NCBI RefSeq assembly: GCF_013170825.1
Contig: NZ_CP033365.1
Location: 2,058,001-2,122,000 of the forward strand
Length of the DNA stretch: 64,000 nucleotides
Source: Mesorhizobium sp. NZP2298
GTDB taxonomy: Bacteria > Pseudomonadota > Alphaproteobacteria > Rhizobiales > Rhizobiaceae
Reading direction: 5' to 3'
Shown here: positions 37,308 to 44,780 of the stretch, piece by piece
Numbering within the stretch: the first letter of the stretch is position 1
Layout of the letters: each line of letters begins with the position of its first letter
Notes under the pieces: generated by a model
Told to the model about the DNA's origin: nothing
The model's database searches: none
The model's input: the letters and a program-made list of their open reading frames with translations, nothing else
Program-made: the position numbers and the translations under genes

Positions 37308-38369
37308 ATGGCAGACAAAGTGGCCCTCATAACCGGGGTAACCGGCCAGGACGGGGCCTATCTCGCGCGATTGCTGCTGCGGAAGGGCTATATTGTCCAT
37401 GGCGTCAAGCGCCGTTCGTCCTCGTTCAACACCGAGCGTATCGACGACATCTATGTCGACCCGCATGAACGCGATATCAGCTTCTTCCTGCACTATGGCG
37501 ATCTCACCGACGCCACGAACCTGATCCGGCTGGTTCAGGAGACGCAGCCTTGCGAGATCTACAATCTCGGTGCTCAGAGCCATGTCCACGTCAGTTTCGA
37601 GACACCTGAATACACGGCCAATGCCGATGCCCTGGGGACGCTCAGGCTGCTCGAGGCAATCCGCATCCTGCGCCTGGAAAAGACGGTGCGCTTTTACCAG
37701 GCCTCGACCTCGGAACTTTACGGCAAGACCCTCGAGGTGCCGCAGCGCGAGACGACGCCCTTCCGTCCCCGCTCACCCTATGCGGCCGCCAAGCTCTATG
37801 CCTACTGGGCGACGGTAAACTATCGCGAGGCGTACGGCATGTTCGCTGCCAACGGCATCCTGTTCAACCATGAGAGCCCGGTCCGCGGCGAAACCTTCGT
37901 GACCCGCAAGATCACGCGGGCAGTTGCCTCGATTCACCATGGCCGACAGGAAACGCTCTATCTCGGCAATATCGATGCCAGGCGAGACTGGGGTCATGCA
38001 CGCGACTATGTCGAGGGCATGTGGCGTATCCTGCAGCACGACGAGGCCGACGATTTCGTGCTGGCGACCGGCGAGGCGCACTCTGTGCGCGAATTCGCCG
38101 AACTGGCCTTTGCCGAAATCGGGAGGACCATTCGCTGGCAGGGCCACGGTGTGGACGAGATTGGCGTCGACGCCGGCTCGGGCGCCGTTCTGGTGCGTAT
38201 CGATCCGCGCTATTTCAGGCCGGCGGAAGTCGACCTGCTTGTCGGCGACCCGTCCAAGGCCAGGACCAGGCTTGGCTGGTCGCATGTGACCGGGTTCAAG
38301 GATCTGGTGGCGGAGATGGTGCGGTCGGATCTGGCACGCGCCGACAACAGGCCCGGTGGCCGTTCCTGA
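37308..38369 (+). CDS. gmd: GDP-mannose 4,6-dehydratase
   Basis: This 353-residue SDR-type dehydratase converts GDP-mannose to GDP-4-keto-6-deoxymannose. It shows [18 protein letters not shown] (residues 7-24), [15 protein letters not shown], the substrate-site Ser/Thr and Glu in [14 protein letters not shown] (about residues 130-143), the catalytic [12 protein letters not shown] and [16 protein letters not shown]. The length is normal. It is followed after 13 bp by GDP-L-fucose synthase, so the pair makes GDP-L-fucose for glycan synthesis. A Nod-factor role (noeL/nolK homologues) was considered, but no nod gene is present. Confidence 0.96.
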
Positions 38370-38382
38370 CGGAGACAGTGCG

Positions 38383-39357
38383 ATGAACGAGACCTTCGAT
38401 CTCAAAGGCAAGCGGGTTTTCGTGGCCGGGCATCGTGGCATGGTCGGGTCCGCCGTCCTGCGCAGGCTGGCAGTCGAGGACTGCGAGATCCTGACCGCGA
38501 CGCGCGCCGAACTCGATCTCCTGGATCAGGCCGGCGTGCGAGGCTGGATGGCCGACCGTCGGCCGGATGCCGTGGTGATGGCCGCGGCCAAGGTCGGCGG
38601 CATCCTTGCGAATGACCGGTTTCCGGCCGATTTCCTCTATGACAATGTCGCGGTGCAGACCAATCTCATCGAGGGCGCCTTCCGCACCGAAGTGGGCAAA
38701 TTGCTGTTCCTCGGTTCATCCTGCATCTATCCAAAACTGGCGCCGCAGCCGATCCCCGAGGATGCCTTGCTGACCGGCCCGCTCGAACCCACCAATGAAT
38801 GGTATGCGATCGCCAAGATCGCCGGGTTGAAACTCTGCCAGGCCTACCGGCGTCAATACGGCGTCAACTACATCTCGGCGATGCCAACCAATCTCTATGG
38901 TCCAGGGGACAATTTTCACCTTGAATCCAGCCACGTCATACCTGCGTTGATGCGCAAGGCACATGAAGCAAAGCAGGCTGGTCACAAGACCCTGCAGGTG
39001 TGGGGATCGGGCACGCCGATGCGCGAGTTCCTGCATGTCGACGATGCAGCCGATGCCCTGGTCTCCCTCCTGAAAACCTACAGCGGTGAAAGCCATGTCA
39101 ATGTCGGGTCGGGTCAGGATATCACCATCGCCGAATTGGCCATGACGGTGGCCTCGATCGTCGGCGGCGATGTGGAGATTACGTTCGATGCGACCAAGCC
39201 GGATGGTACACCGCGCAAGTTGCTGGACGTTTCGCGGCTGTTTGCCACGGGATGGCGCCCCCGGTACTCGCTGCACAGCGGGCTGGAACAGACATATGCA
39301 TGGTTCCTCCGGCATATCGAAGCCGGTCAGGTTCGGCTGACAGCATCAGAAAGTTGA
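38383..39357 (+). CDS. fcl: GDP-L-fucose synthase
   Basis: This 324-residue epimerase/reductase makes GDP-L-fucose from the Gmd product. The start at 38383 has GGAGACAG ahead of it. Motifs are VFVAGHRGMVGSAVLRRL (residues 10-27), the signature FLGSSCIYPKLAPQP, catalytic YAIAKIAGLKLCQ and GSGTPMREFLHVDD. The last residues GLEQTYAWFLRHIEAG are repeated in a decayed form 1.5 kb downstream (40820-40885). It forms an operon with gmd and probably with the two glycosyltransferase-like genes that follow. Confidence 0.95.
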   Translation: MNETFDLKGKRVFVAGHRGMVGSAVLRRLAVEDCEILTATRAELDLLDQAGVRGWMADRRPDAVVMAAAKVGGILANDRFPADFLYDNVAVQTNLIEGAFRTEVGKLLFLGSSCIYPKLAPQPIPEDALLTGPLEPTNEWYAIAKIAGLKLCQAYRRQYGVNYISAMPTNLYGPGDNFHLESSHVIPALMRKAHEAKQAGHKTLQVWGSGTPMREFLHVDDAADALVSLLKTYSGESHVNVGSGQDITIAELAMTVASIVGGDVEITFDATKPDGTPRKLLDVSRLFATGWRPRYSLHSGLEQTYAWFLRHIEAGQVRLTASES

Positions 39358-39378: not shown

Positions 39379-40800
39379 ATGAAGACATTGGCGGCGACCA
39401 GGGCAGATGGCCTTGGAGGGCGCCTGCTTGCCATGGTCAATGCAAAATGTCTCGCCGACAAAATGGGGTGCCGTTTCGGCTTCACCTGGAACCGCCGGTC
39501 CATCGACGACATGCAATTCCATATTGTCGATTCCGTCGACAAGGTTTTTGCCGCCGATTTCATCGAAAGACATTGGCTGGGCGAGAAGATCGACACGGCC
39601 CGGTTCGGTGTCCTCGATGGAACCCGGTTCACCCGGTCCAGCTTGGCGGCCGACGCCCGCCGGAACGGATTCCAGGGGTGGATCTGCGACGATTTCCGCA
39701 TCCTGAGGTCGTTCCGGCAGGGCTGGTTCAGGGCGATGCTGCCCGCCAACAGGTCGGCCCGATTGAGGCATCGGACGTTTGGCACGTTTGGCTTCTCCGA
39801 ATCCGTGAGAGCAACGATCGCCGCCGCCGGCAAACCTCGGTTTTCCCGGCCGATGGCCGCGCTGCATCTGCGCAGCGGCGACATCATCCACGGGAATTAT
39901 CGCTCGGAGCTGGAGTTTTGCGACAAGGTCATTCCCGCACCTCTAGCCAAGGCGATCGTATCGAAACTGGCGTCGAAAGGCCTGGCGACGCTGGTGATCG
40001 GCCAGGACCGGGCAACGCTCGACTATCTGAAATCGGAGACCGGAGCCTTCCTCGCCGACGATTTCGGGGCAAGCGAGTTTGAAGACGAGACGCTCAAGGC
40101 GTTTCTCGAAATGGCATTGATGGCTCGGTGTCGACAGATCCATGCCGGAAGCAGCGTGTTCGCGACAATCTCGTCAGTGATCGGCGGCATCCGGGTCATC
40201 AAGCCAAAAGCCGTGTTCGGCAATCGCGGAACAGCGACGGTCATCCTGGACGAATTGAAGGTTCGGCAATCCGATTACCATCCGCTGGAGGCCGCCTTTG
40301 GTTATCAGTCGGCCTTCGTGCTGACGGAACACAGCACCAGTCCGGCGCAGGCGAGGGGAATTCTCGAAAAGGCGGCCGCGCTCGACCCACAAAACCCCGC
40401 CTATGCGTTGAAGATGGCGGCCGGCTATTTTCGAGAACGGAATTATCAAGGCGGCGAGGCGGTTCTGAAAGCGTTCATGCTCAAGGAAGTCGACGCCCGC
40501 GCCGAGAATTCCATGCGGATTCTGCAGGTTCTGACCCACCCCTCGGCGCGTGGCCACATCATGGCCGGTGACTTTGAACTCTACTTTGCCGCGGCCAAGG
40601 CAGGGTATCCCTACGCCGCGGCATGCTCTGCCCAGATCCTTCACGCGGCTCTGGGCAGAACCGAGGCCGCCTTGGCGATGGCCGCGCTGTCCCTCAAGGC
40701 GGACCCCGCCAATCGGCTTTTTCGGCAAATTGAATTGGCGCTCCGGGCGAGCGCGACGGCAAGTGACAGCTCGTCCCTGCGGCAGCTGGCCGGCGGTTGA
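39379..40800 (+). CDS. Putative fucosyltransferase-like protein with TPR-like C-terminus, paralogue 1
   Basis: This 473-residue cytoplasmic protein has no signal peptide. The N-terminal part has DGLGGRLLAMVNAKCLADKMG (acceptor/fold region). ALHLRSGDI (about residues 161-169) is the H-x-R-x-G-D motif seen in GT11/GT23/GT65 fucosyltransferases. LVIGQDRATLDYL and FLEMALMARCRQIHAGSS recall the nucleotide-binding half of that fold. From about residue 320, ARGILEKAAALDPQNPAYALK and the following repeats look TPR-like. It starts 21 bp after fcl. ATG at 39379 aligns with the paralogue's start; a TTG five codons upstream is possible. A role in transferring fucose (or a derivative) to a surface glycan is inference from motif and context. 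Confidence 0.7.
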   Translation: MKTLAATRADGLGGRLLAMVNAKCLADKMGCRFGFTWNRRSIDDMQFHIVDSVDKVFAADFIERHWLGEKIDTARFGVLDGTRFTRSSLAADARRNGFQGWICDDFRILRSFRQGWFRAMLPANRSARLRHRTFGTFGFSESVRATIAAAGKPRFSRPMAALHLRSGDIIHGNYRSELEFCDKVIPAPLAKAIVSKLASKGLATLVIGQDRATLDYLKSETGAFLADDFGASEFEDETLKAFLEMALMARCRQIHAGSSVFATISSVIGGIRVIKPKAVFGNRGTATVILDELKVRQSDYHPLEAAFGYQSAFVLTEHSTSPAQARGILEKAAALDPQNPAYALKMAAGYFRERNYQGGEAVLKAFMLKEVDARAENSMRILQVLTHPSARGHIMAGDFELYFAAAKAGYPYAAACSAQILHAALGRTEAALAMAALSLKADPANRLFRQIELALRASATASDSSSLRQLAGG

Positions 40801-40819
40801 CGCGTTCGAACCTCGCGGT

Positions 40820-40885
40820 GGATTGGAACAGACATATGCATGGTTTCTCCGCCACATTGAAAAGGGCGATGTCCGGCTCGGGGCC
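40820..40885 (+). pseudogene. Remnant of the fcl 3' end between the two paralogues
   Basis: The translation GLEQTYAWFLRHIEKGDVRL here repeats the C-terminus of GDP-L-fucose synthase (39282-39345), and TGGAACAGACATATGCATGG is identical at DNA level. It is not part of a working fcl gene. It marks the left boundary of a tandem duplication that copied the fcl tail together with the next gene. Confidence 0.85.
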
Positions 40886-40901
40886 GCGTGGCGGAGGATC
40901 G

Positions 40902-42320
40902 ATGTTGATTGTCGTCAACAGGGAAGATGGGCTGGGCGGCCGACTGCTGGCGATGGCCAATGCGAAGGCCCTGGCCGACAGGCTCGGCTACCGCTTCGGT
41001 TTCACCTGGAGCAGCCGGGATATCATCGACCAGGAATCGCATACCGTCGATGTGGTCGGGAAGATCTTCTCCGCGGACTTCATCGACAAGCACTGGCTGG
41101 GCGAGACGATCAAGGTTGCCGATTTCGGTGTCCTCGGCGGCACGGCCTTCGCACCGTCGGACCTTGAGGCGGCTGCAAGAGGGGGAAAGCTGCGCGGCTG
41201 GATCTGCGACGACTTCGACGTTCTCGATTTCTTCCGTGACCAGGGTGTTCAACCGGCTCGGTCCGAAGCGCTGCGGGCCTTCGGGTTCGCGCCGGCCGTG
41301 CGGCAGGCCCTGGATGCCGCCGGCAAATGCCGCTTTCCCGGCCCGATGGCCGCCTTGCATCTTCGCAGTGGCGACATCGTCTACGGCCACCATCGCAGAA
41401 GGCTGGTTTTCGCCGACAAGGTTATCCCTTCGACCCTGGCCAAGGCTGTTGTGTCGGAGCTCTCATCGAAGGGCCTGACGACGCTCCTTGTCGGCCAGGA
41501 TCGCGCGACGCTCGATTATGTCGGCGCGCAAACCGGGGCAATGCGGACCGACGATTTCGGTGCCGCGGACTTCAAGGGAGAGGAGGCGCTCAGCGCATTC
41601 TTCGAGATGGCGCTGATGGCAAGGTGCCAGCAGATCCATGCCGGCAACAGCATCTACGCGGTGGTTGCGTCCGTCATGGGCGAGGTCCCGTGCCTGGACA
41701 TCAGCGCGCTGTTCAGCAAGCCGCGCGCGACGGAAATCATCATGCAGGAATTGCAGGCGCATCAAGCCGACTATCATCCCCTTGAAGCCGCCTTTGGCTA
41801 CCAATGGTCGTTCCTGTCGCTGGAAGACAAGATCGACCCGGCGCGGGCGAGGGAGTTGCTGGAAAAAGCCCAGGCGCTGGATCCGGAAAACGACGCCTAT
41901 GACCTGAAGCTGGCGGCGGCGCATTTTCGCGAAGGCAATTATCCGGCCGGCGAGGCCATGCTGAAATCGCTGATGATCAGCCAATCCCGGCTGCGTTCCA
42001 AAATTCCGTTGCCGATGATGGACATCCTGACCGACCGGATTGGCGGCTTCCTGACGATGGCCAGGGATTTCGAGGTCTTTTTCGCGGCGGCAAGGGCCGG
42101 CTATCCCTACGCCATGGCGTGCTCGGCCTATATCCTGCTCGAAGTGCTGGAGGACAGAAAGTCGGCGATGGAGATGGCGGCAAGGTTGGTGAAGATCGAG
42201 CCTGGAAATGCGATCTTCAGGAGAATCAGGCGGCGGATCGAGCTTGGCAAGAAGCCGAAATCCGGTCGGCTGGCGAAAGCACGGTGGCGGCTCGGCCGGC
42301 TGAAGACGTTCTGGATCTGA
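40902..42320 (+). CDS. Putative fucosyltransferase-like protein with TPR-like C-terminus, paralogue 2
   Basis: This 472-residue paralogue is collinear with the protein at 39379-40800 over its full length, sharing DGLGGRLLAM, RFGFTW, HWLGE, GWICDDF, MAALHLRSGDI, GQDRATLDY, EMALMARC, DYHPLEAAFGYQ and the TPR-like LEKAQALDPENDAYDLK. The start at 40902 is preceded by GGCGGAGG; upstream in-frame codons lie in the fcl remnant. His153, Arg155 and Asp158 form the motif. The basic C-terminus (RRRIELGKKPKSGRLAKARWR) is unique to this copy and could touch the membrane. Acceptor and sugar specificity are unknown; two diverged copies suggest two linkages. Confidence 0.7.
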   Translation: MLIVVNREDGLGGRLLAMANAKALADRLGYRFGFTWSSRDIIDQESHTVDVVGKIFSADFIDKHWLGETIKVADFGVLGGTAFAPSDLEAAARGGKLRGWICDDFDVLDFFRDQGVQPARSEALRAFGFAPAVRQALDAAGKCRFPGPMAALHLRSGDIVYGHHRRRLVFADKVIPSTLAKAVVSELSSKGLTTLLVGQDRATLDYVGAQTGAMRTDDFGAADFKGEEALSAFFEMALMARCQQIHAGNSIYAVVASVMGEVPCLDISALFSKPRATEIIMQELQAHQADYHPLEAAFGYQWSFLSLEDKIDPARARELLEKAQALDPENDAYDLKLAAAHFREGNYPAGEAMLKSLMISQSRLRSKIPLPMMDILTDRIGGFLTMARDFEVFFAAARAGYPYAMACSAYILLEVLEDRKSAMEMAARLVKIEPGNAIFRRIRRRIELGKKPKSGRLAKARWRLGRLKTFWI

Positions 42321-42451: not shown

Positions 42452-44206
42452 TTAGGGGCCATCGGCCTTCGCTGACGCCATATTCGGCTGCAATCTTTGC
42501 GCGTCAGGCTCGAGGTAGTGCAGTGACAGATCTATCGAATTCCAGTGCACGGAGTCGGAGAACAACCCAAAGATGTCACCGCTGGTGAATTGCGGAGGGC
42601 GGGACGTCGCGGCGAAGAGCGACTCGTCGTATTCGGACGCGATGTCGGCGGGACTATACCCCATCAATTCCAGCACGGTGGGAACGATCTGGAAATGGCT
42701 CGCCTTGCCGCGATTGGCCGCGGCGCCGATTGCGAAACGCGCCCTCAGCGTCGGATCGGCGGTATAGGCCATCAATGGAACAAGACCCACACGCGGATCG
42801 GGATCATAGATGGTGCAGTGGGTCGATTTGCCGACTTTCATCGCCTGTCCGTGGTCGGACGTATAGATCATCGCGGTATTCGAAAGATCGGCGCTCTCGA
42901 ACAGCTTTTTCATGAAGTGGTCGACCGACCAGCGGACCGCATTGCGGTACGACGCCAAGCGTGTCGCGACCGTGTCCTTGCCGGCCGACGTGACTGTCGG
43001 TCCGTAGACGGCTTCCGATGCAGGATAGGACCAGTCATAGGGAAAATGCGCGCCGTTCTTATTGGCGTAAATGAAGACTGGCCGGCTGCCGGCCAACTCG
43101 CCGCGTAGGATGTCGATCAACCGGAAATCGGCGCGGTCCATCTGCACGTCGTCTATGAAATAGGCCTTGTCGATGTCACGCTTTTCTCGCACCGTCATGA
43201 AATTCGTGCTCCCCAGGAGGACGACTGCCTTGGCGGTCGACTGCGCGTCGATATATACCGTTCGGTATCCGGCCTTCTTCGCGTATTGCCAGATCGTTGG
43301 GTTGGTATTGACGGAATGGGCGAGATCGCGGCGCGACGCCGTGAGGCGCAGTATGGCGTTCGAATAAACACTGCAGTCGCCGCCGGACACGGCGGGACCG
43401 AAATCGACGAATCTGTCGGCGAGGGCGGCGATGTTAGGTGTGTACGAATTGCCAGGCGAGAGATCGACGAAATCGGCGCGAACGCTTTCGTCGATCATCA
43501 TGACGATGTTGCGAGGCCTGACCTGCGCCGTGGCGTTCCATGTGACGGCGCGGCGCTCCGGGGCGCCTTGTGTCACGATCCGCTCCGCGGCCATTGCGGA
43601 CAGAGCCAGCGGAGCAAACTGCTTCGGCAGGCCGGAGGAGCCGCCTCCGTCCTTGGCATAGACCACGGCTGCAATAATCAGGATCGGCAGCAGTGGGAGC
43701 CACGCCATGCGCCCTACCCATCTCGAGAGCCGGGCGCCTGTCACTGCCGGCGGAATCGAAATCGACGTCACGCCAAAGGCCATGATCGCCACGGCGGGCC
43801 AGATCAGCCGATCGTAGAAACCGGCGGCCTCGCCGATGGAATTGCGGCTCGCCCAGAGGGAAAGGATATCGAAGACCGACAGATCGGCGTGACTTGCCTG
43901 GAAATAGACCCAGGCTGCCGCGCTCGACAGTGCAAGCGGCACGGCCCATAACAGGCGTGTGACGAACCGGGGCTGGAATGACGCAAACAACAACGCCACC
44001 ATGGCCAGTCCCCAGATTGCGAGGAATGGAGCCAGGGTGGTGAAGCGCCCGTTGGCGAAGAGATTTCCGACGCGGTCCCAGAAGTCGAAACTGGTGATCG
44101 CCACGAAAACGGCGATCATGGTCAATTTGGCACATAGGGCTGCTACGCCCCAGCGATTGCGATGATGGGTCGGAGCCTGATCGATGCGTTCACCCGTGCC
44201 AGGCAT
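42452..44206 (-). CDS. EptA-like membrane transferase of the alkaline phosphatase/sulfatase superfamily
   Basis: This 584-residue protein has five membrane helices (about residues 20-42, 57-78, 82-103, 134-153 and 168-185) followed by a periplasmic catalytic domain. RNIVMMIDESVRADF (about residues 232-246) supplies the metal Asp/Glu. SGGDCSVYSNAI (about residues 274-285) aligns with the nucleophile region of phosphoethanolamine transferases, with Ser279 the best candidate. ANKNGAHFPYDWSYP and YTSDHGQAM give further metal ligands. A formylglycine sulfatase motif is absent. It probably transfers a phospho-head group to a surface glycolipid or polysaccharide. The start at 44206 follows GGGGGG; a longer start is possible. 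It converges on the fucose locus. Confidence 0.75.
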   Translation of the reverse strand: MPGTGERIDQAPTHHRNRWGVAALCAKLTMIAVFVAITSFDFWDRVGNLFANGRFTTLAPFLAIWGLAMVALLFASFQPRFVTRLLWAVPLALSSAAAWVYFQASHADLSVFDILSLWASRNSIGEAAGFYDRLIWPAVAIMAFGVTSISIPPAVTGARLSRWVGRMAWLPLLPILIIAAVVYAKDGGGSSGLPKQFAPLALSAMAAERIVTQGAPERRAVTWNATAQVRPRNIVMMIDESVRADFVDLSPGNSYTPNIAALADRFVDFGPAVSGGDCSVYSNAILRLTASRRDLAHSVNTNPTIWQYAKKAGYRTVYIDAQSTAKAVVLLGSTNFMTVREKRDIDKAYFIDDVQMDRADFRLIDILRGELAGSRPVFIYANKNGAHFPYDWSYPASEAVYGPTVTSAGKDTVATRLASYRNAVRWSVDHFMKKLFESADLSNTAMIYTSDHGQAMKVGKSTHCTIYDPDPRVGLVPLMAYTADPTLRARFAIGAAANRGKASHFQIVPTVLELMGYSPADIASEYDESLFAATSRPPQFTSGDIFGLFSDSVHWNSIDLSLHYLEPDAQRLQPNMASAKADGP

Positions 44207-44780
44207 GACGACCCCCCGTATTTTGTAGAGTATTGACGACAAAGCCGCGGTGATCGTTGCGTTGGACGTGCACAGGTCTCGGAGACGATTCCGAACCGCG
44301 GACAACCCACCCGGCCGCCCCTGAAAGACCGCCGTTCAGACAGCGTTCCAAGAAGCTGCCGCCGCGCATCGGAGCCTTGTTCGGTGACCAGCGGTCAGCG
44401 AAGCGTTCGCTCGTACAGCTTGGTTCGTGCGTCGATCGGCGACGGAGCCATTGGCCAAATGCTCGCGTGCGCTGCAGTTCTTCGAACTCCAGCCGCGATA
44501 CTCCTTGCCACGTCAAACCGATCTCCTGGCGTAGCATCAGCGTTTCAAGATCGCTGCCGTTGCGCTTGATCAGTTGGCGAGGTTGGTCTTCCGGTATGCT
44601 CCTTGCTCCACCAGATAATCATGGTCTGCAGTCACCTGCCATGCGTATGCGGTTGTCCGGCGGCCACGCTATGGCGGGTGGGCCTTGAGCAGCCTAACTA
44701 ACCTGATGCCTCATGGGCCTTCAGTTCCATCAATATGTGCCGATCTGAAACCCGTAGCTTCATTCATATGAAGGAAGCCG
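44207..44780. other. Gene-poor, probably degenerate stretch
   Basis: No open frame here resembles a protein family I know, and the frames of 60-140 codons on both strands read as compositional shadows or scrambled residues. The stretch separates the EptA-like gene from the integrase remnant and looks like decayed island DNA. Confidence 0.5.

Follow-up and report, generated by a model that had tools for sequence, protein, structure and literature searches.

Two adjacent genes in a 64,000-nucleotide stretch of Mesorhizobium sp. NZP2298 DNA (contig NZ_CP033365.1, positions 2,058,001 to 2,122,000; this whole stretch is the window, to which unprefixed coordinates refer) quite probably encode, as judged from their sequences and structure models, GDP-L-fucose-dependent GT-B fucosyltransferases. 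The genes, termed A (39379..40800) and B (40836..42320, core 40902-42320), both lie on the + strand, and their products would form a new family, fused to a tetratricopeptide repeat (TPR) domain, in the superfamily of NodZ, FUT8, POFUT and Arabidopsis FUT1 (AtFUT1). In A, residues 1 to ~290 form a GT-B domain resembling those of fucosyltransferases, and a C-terminal TPR-like domain and a near-neutral tail follow; B has the same architecture, ending in a strongly basic tail.

The AlphaFold models of A and B reached predicted local distance difference test (pLDDT) scores of 90.4 and 92.6, respectively, and in both the N-terminal domain has the GT-B arrangement, which the original prediction, made from the sequence alone, had set beforehand as the test of the fold. 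The models and searches of B were made with the core frame. Foldseek comparison with the PDB (E ≤ 0.001) returned 42 matches for A and 28 for B, every one a fucosyltransferase. These included NodZ, POFUT1 and POFUT2 (GT65 and GT68), FUT8 (GT23) and AtFUT1 (GT37), with POFUT1 among the best for both proteins. The likeness to GT23 and O-fucosyltransferase (O-FucT) enzymes that had been suspected from motifs was thus borne out by the best solved relatives, and also by a profile-level link to NodZ (see below). GT41 was not among the Foldseek matches listed, which does not exclude a GT41 fold.

At the sequence level, Pfam and NCBIfam scans recognised the TPR part alone in A and B. No match was listed up to E 5 for GT11 (PF01531), for the O-FucT family (PF10250) or for the NodZ family (PF05830, GT23), for which HMMER filters drop most weak matches, and there was no match to GT41 in Pfam. 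A distant relative, P0121, matched PF05830 at E 0.059, below the cut-off. A GT11 search of the NZP2298 genome also gave no match, but was uninformative, as its controls were equally silent. In hmmsearch against the PDB, alignment A1 of the family placed NodZ at E 1.1, outranked by TPR proteins and by an unrelated N-terminal match (E 0.3), while the more diverse alignment A3 matched NodZ at E 2.5e-4 (residues 5-45 on NodZ 4-44); NodZ alone matched the N-terminal domain among the best 60 of 112 rows. When the glycosyltransferase domain (121 rows) was aligned by hhalign to 20 NodZ sequences from the genus, the probability was 95.5 and the score 48.5 over 262 columns, with HLR of the family aligned on HVR of NodZ; the values were 91.3 and 51.6 when one option was omitted, and 93.4 and 43.7 with the full-length family profile. 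Controls remained lower: reversed NodZ gave a probability of 0.1 and a score of 3.6, 19 other alignments at most 1.6 and 22.4, and 30 column shuffles at most 1.3 and 21.1. Eighteen of these 19 alignments were clusters of open reading frames, which included spurious antisense frames, and two of the 19 were fcl; frame calling was noisy in this GC-rich DNA, and its output was used loosely.

The putative active site is strongly conserved. ALHLRSGDI, the motif from which fucosyltransferase activity had been proposed, is present in both A and B, as are GQDRATLDY and EMALMARC-QIHAG-S. H163, R165, G167, D168, G172, R175 and K183 (A numbering) are invariant in 122 of 122 aligned relatives (excluding P0003, which is B of this genome again, and the fragments P0118 and P0119), so that the H-x-R motif expected of the superfamily, with its catalytic or nucleotide-binding Arg, is present throughout and aligned with HVR of NodZ. 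S259, the Ser of EMALMARC-QIHAG-S, is invariant in the 121 rows with a residue there, R15 in 115 of 115 and D10 in 107 of 107, the remaining rows being gaps. In POFUT1 (PMC3180450), GDP binding and catalysis both require the Arg of H-L-R (R240), Phe357 contributes to binding of the nucleotide, and the catalytic Asn43 lies in an N-terminal loop.

The genes for GDP-L-fucose synthesis lie directly upstream of A on the + strand, as the original prediction had it: gmd for GDP-mannose 4,6-dehydratase (37308..38369; PF16363; TIGR01472 at 589 bits, cut-off 415) and fcl for GDP-L-fucose synthase (38380..39357; NF047922 at 520 bits, cut-off 500), both above equivalog cut-offs. A is an open frame of 473 amino acids and the core of B one of 472. 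The collinearity claimed for the two over 470 residues was recovered as 54% identity across 446 aligned residues (E 3e-166), and they are the sole family matches in the genome (one contig, 7.34 Mb). B likely starts at the ATG at 40836, ~22 codons 5′ of the core, where eight of the nine B-type rows listed have ATG followed by x-G-F-S (M-H-R-F-S in the B-type start region of L107); many B relatives in databases are 490-499 amino acids long, though the database entry for B of this genome (P0003) has 462 amino acids. Both genes are under purifying selection (0.20-0.31 for A and 0.14-0.25 for B; 15 pairs each, simple counting method). Their G+C contents (0.612 and 0.619) are near that of the window (0.631) and thus provide no compositional evidence for recent import. 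A promoter and terminator scan found nothing above shuffled sequences.

The C-terminal third had been described as TPR-like. It was modelled as helical repeats in both proteins, and PF14559 (TPR) matched B above the cut-off (E 1.7e-6) and A below it (E 0.0039). The tails beyond it distinguish the two types: the charge over the last 35 residues is +13 in B of the window, between -2 and +2 in all 10 A-type copies, and between +9 and +15 in 37 of the 38 other copies of the genus, the exception being L123 with +4. Among 115 database relatives (excluding P0003, P0118, P0119, P0106, P0109 and P0117), 88 have a tail charge of at least +5, compared with 4.9% of internal 35-mers. A transmembrane helix was not indicated in A or B (maximum 19-residue hydropathy, 1.44 and 1.63), and the basic tail suggests that B-type copies dock on a membrane.

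A protein-set search found 115 relatives, mostly from Mesorhizobium where the organism was named, and a profile search added two more distant relatives (P0120 and P0121) and two fragments. Among 146 genomes of the genus, 40 carry a full-length member, with two copies in 10 genomes and 50 copies altogether, one of them (G066) interrupted by an internal TGA. In 39 of the 40 carriers the match of the first copy starts -4 to +112 bases from the end of the fcl match; in the remaining one (G068) the member lies beside the usual downstream genes, ~38 kb from fcl. Fragments alone occur in 10 of the 146 genomes, all no more than 32 bases past the fcl match. Chromosomal-type fcl (79% or more identical) is present in 65 genomes, of which 15 have no family member, and presence of the family is associated with that of gmd (29/11/6/19; Fisher p 2.6e-4, not corrected for phylogeny). 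Nineteen of the 65 (L035-L049, L065-L074) carry an orphan fcl, which has no gmd beside it and is not accompanied by an intact member.

In the NZP2298 genome, NodZ is encoded at 7.00 Mb on the contig together with another gmd and another fcl; fucosylation of Nod factors therefore has its own genes. Fragments of the 5′ end of nodZ (32-39 codons, with an internal TAG) accompany the full gene in 12 of the 146 genomes, among them G000 (G000:C1:6765463-6765558). Downstream of B, a 617-amino-acid sulfatase-type protein (PF00884) is encoded on the - strand at 42455-44305, running towards B, and may, judging from its family, be an envelope-modifying phosphotransferase-like enzyme.

Beyond the genus, a search at family rank found five more genomes among 394, one of which (G416), a weak match to the TPR part only, was dropped before distant loci were counted. 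Further members, from a scan of named genomes, were in Kushneria aurantia (a gammaproteobacterium), Brevundimonas (two loci), Palleronia, two Campylobacterota and Agrobacterium larrymoorei. The ten distant loci are ~25-32% identical, and three of them have gmd and fcl nearby: member, gmd and fcl follow in a row on one strand in G487 and Kushneria, and in A. larrymoorei gmd and fcl lie within ~5 kb of the member on the opposite strand. In G496, a 1661-amino-acid frame (L084:8961-13943) with an N-terminal alginate-lyase domain (PF05426) has a family member at its end and is adjoined by two GT2 genes, and two distant members (L085:10156-12042 and L135:4288-6087) carry an N-terminal F5/8 type C domain, of carbohydrate-binding type.

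A and B had been called a tandem family. They are indeed adjoining paralogues, but simple duplication in place is disfavoured by their separate clades, by the single-gene orders and by a leftover fcl tail. In a tree made after removal of seven truncated duplicates, with the five most distant rows on long branches and of unsure placement, an A-type clade of 10 rows (support 90/94) was separate from a 37-row clade holding the B copies (100/99); the six A copies from genomes with both types grouped at 100/100, the A/B split was close to the base of the rows from the genus, and L123 fell outside both clades. Both fcl-A alone (L114, L129) and fcl-B alone occur as gene orders. A piece of the fcl 3′ end precedes the second gene in seven of the ten two-copy loci, with a weak trace in L107 and none in L122 and L125. 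In the window this remnant (GLEQTYAWFLRHIEKGDVRLGAA, 40820..40888, + strand) is in another frame than B and overlaps its likely start. The remnant reads like the end of fcl in relatives that have B alone (EKGDVRLGAA); in the six genomes with both types, by contrast, the intact fcl ends in G-Q-(V/I)-R-L-(T/S)-A-x-E-S. These sequence comparisons suggest that a block of A with a new fcl 3′ end probably entered between fcl and the older B, and that the old fcl tail was probably retained. In G129 and G046 (L052, L053), two copies ~1.0-1.2 kb apart, neither of A type, represent an independent pairing.

Among known systems, NodZ, the alpha-1,6-fucosyltransferase of Nod factors, is 15-18% identical to A and B in structural alignment, and differs in matching PF05830 and in having no additional C-terminal TPR-like domain. 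FUT8 and AtFUT1 are ~11-15% identical, with different accessory domains. POFUT1 and POFUT2 share the fold and the key Arg of H-L-R (POFUT1 R240; PMC3180450), whereas A and B have an added TPR and no endoplasmic reticulum or EGF-domain setting. The fusion of glycosyltransferase and TPR is shared with SPINDLY/OGT (GT41) and Caulobacter FlmG, and SPINDLY is also a fucosyltransferase, but in these proteins (PMC9715652 and PMC7591256) the TPR is N-terminal, not C-terminal as in A and B, which also lack a GT41 Pfam match.

Several observations weigh against assignment of A and B as fucosyltransferases of the NodZ superfamily. When the family alignment was cut to the columns of A, the hhalign probability fell to 18.5 (score 32.9, E 0.0013) in an unchanged register; the probability thus depends on how the alignment is cut and is sensitive to set-up, although the score was always above the controls (33-52, compared with at most 22). 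The position of the catalytic Asn43 of POFUT1 (PMC3180450), placed by eye without superposition, seems to correspond to G14 of A and is mostly Gly in the family, with an invariant Arg as the next residue; chemical details around the fucose may therefore be different. With respect to gene context, gmd does not adjoin fcl in 11 of the 40 full-length carriers, seven of the ten distant loci have no gmd or fcl match in the stretch covered, some of these contigs being short, and the eight other neighbouring genes scanned include no O-antigen or exopolysaccharide cluster, so that the acceptor cannot be read from the context.

Among other explanations, it is possible, though improbable, that A and B are protein O-fucosyltransferases whose TPR-like domain grips a cytoplasmic protein. 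They would then function much as SPINDLY or FlmG do, but through a catalytic domain of NodZ/POFUT type and with the TPR at the opposite side. TPR domains choose the protein acceptors in SPINDLY and FlmG (PMC9715652 and PMC7591256), the best fold matches include POFUT1, and one member of Brevundimonas sp. Leaf363 (L140:7917-9266) suggestively lies among the flagellar hook genes flgE, flgD and flgK; the second member in that genome (L137), however, is beside genes for a PQQ-dehydrogenase and CTP synthase. In addition, the TPR part of alignment A1 has a single invariant or almost invariant Asn (N339) and thus does not preserve the asparagine ladder of SPINDLY/OGT, no evident protein-target gene occurs among the neighbours scanned, and the basic tails of B-type copies are equally compatible with a membrane site. 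Somewhat more doubtful still is the wider proposal that the family O-fucosylates cytoplasmic or flagellar proteins as a second, independent SPINDLY-like invention, A and B each being adapted to targets of its own.

It is unlikely that the enzymes share the fold but transfer another GDP-6-deoxysugar, e.g. a talose or rhamnose form, with fcl merely a historical neighbour. The O-chains of M. loti NZP2213 are rich in 6-deoxytalose, and the word fucose is absent from the main text of that report (PMC6274867); the 11 carriers without gmd beside fcl also agree with this explanation. Against it, gmd and fcl exceed GDP-L-fucose equivalog cut-offs and also neighbour distant members in three other lineages, and every best fold match is a fucosyltransferase. 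That A and B are inactive fold relatives acting as TPR scaffolds is very improbable: activity is not known for the family and fragments alone occur in some genomes, but the active-site motif is invariant and both copies are under purifying selection.

Taking A and B as fucosyltransferases, we infer that they are cytoplasmic, inverting-type GT-B enzymes, which we take to be metal-independent. GDP-L-fucose supplied by gmd and fcl would be bound in the GT-B cleft, where the H-L-R Arg (R165 of A) would hold the beta-phosphate and the leaving group, as Arg240 does in POFUT1, while the TPR-like domain would grip the acceptor or a partner protein. The basic tail may let B-type enzymes dock at the inner membrane or at a polyanion, and these would most probably fucosylate a membrane-bound precursor of an envelope glycan, the tail being the one feature that points to such an acceptor. 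A, which has no basic tail, would probably have a different acceptor or belong to a different complex.

Where public records name members of this family, they are called hypothetical, uncharacterized or tetratricopeptide repeat proteins, and in the searches made of an open-access library we recognised no paper describing it. The present analysis provides the family with a concrete predicted function and a testable active site, and would add to the fucosyltransferase superfamily a TPR-fused branch with distant members in Campylobacterota and Kushneria. It also indicates that Mesorhizobium may have a second route of fucosylation, besides that of Nod factors by NodZ.
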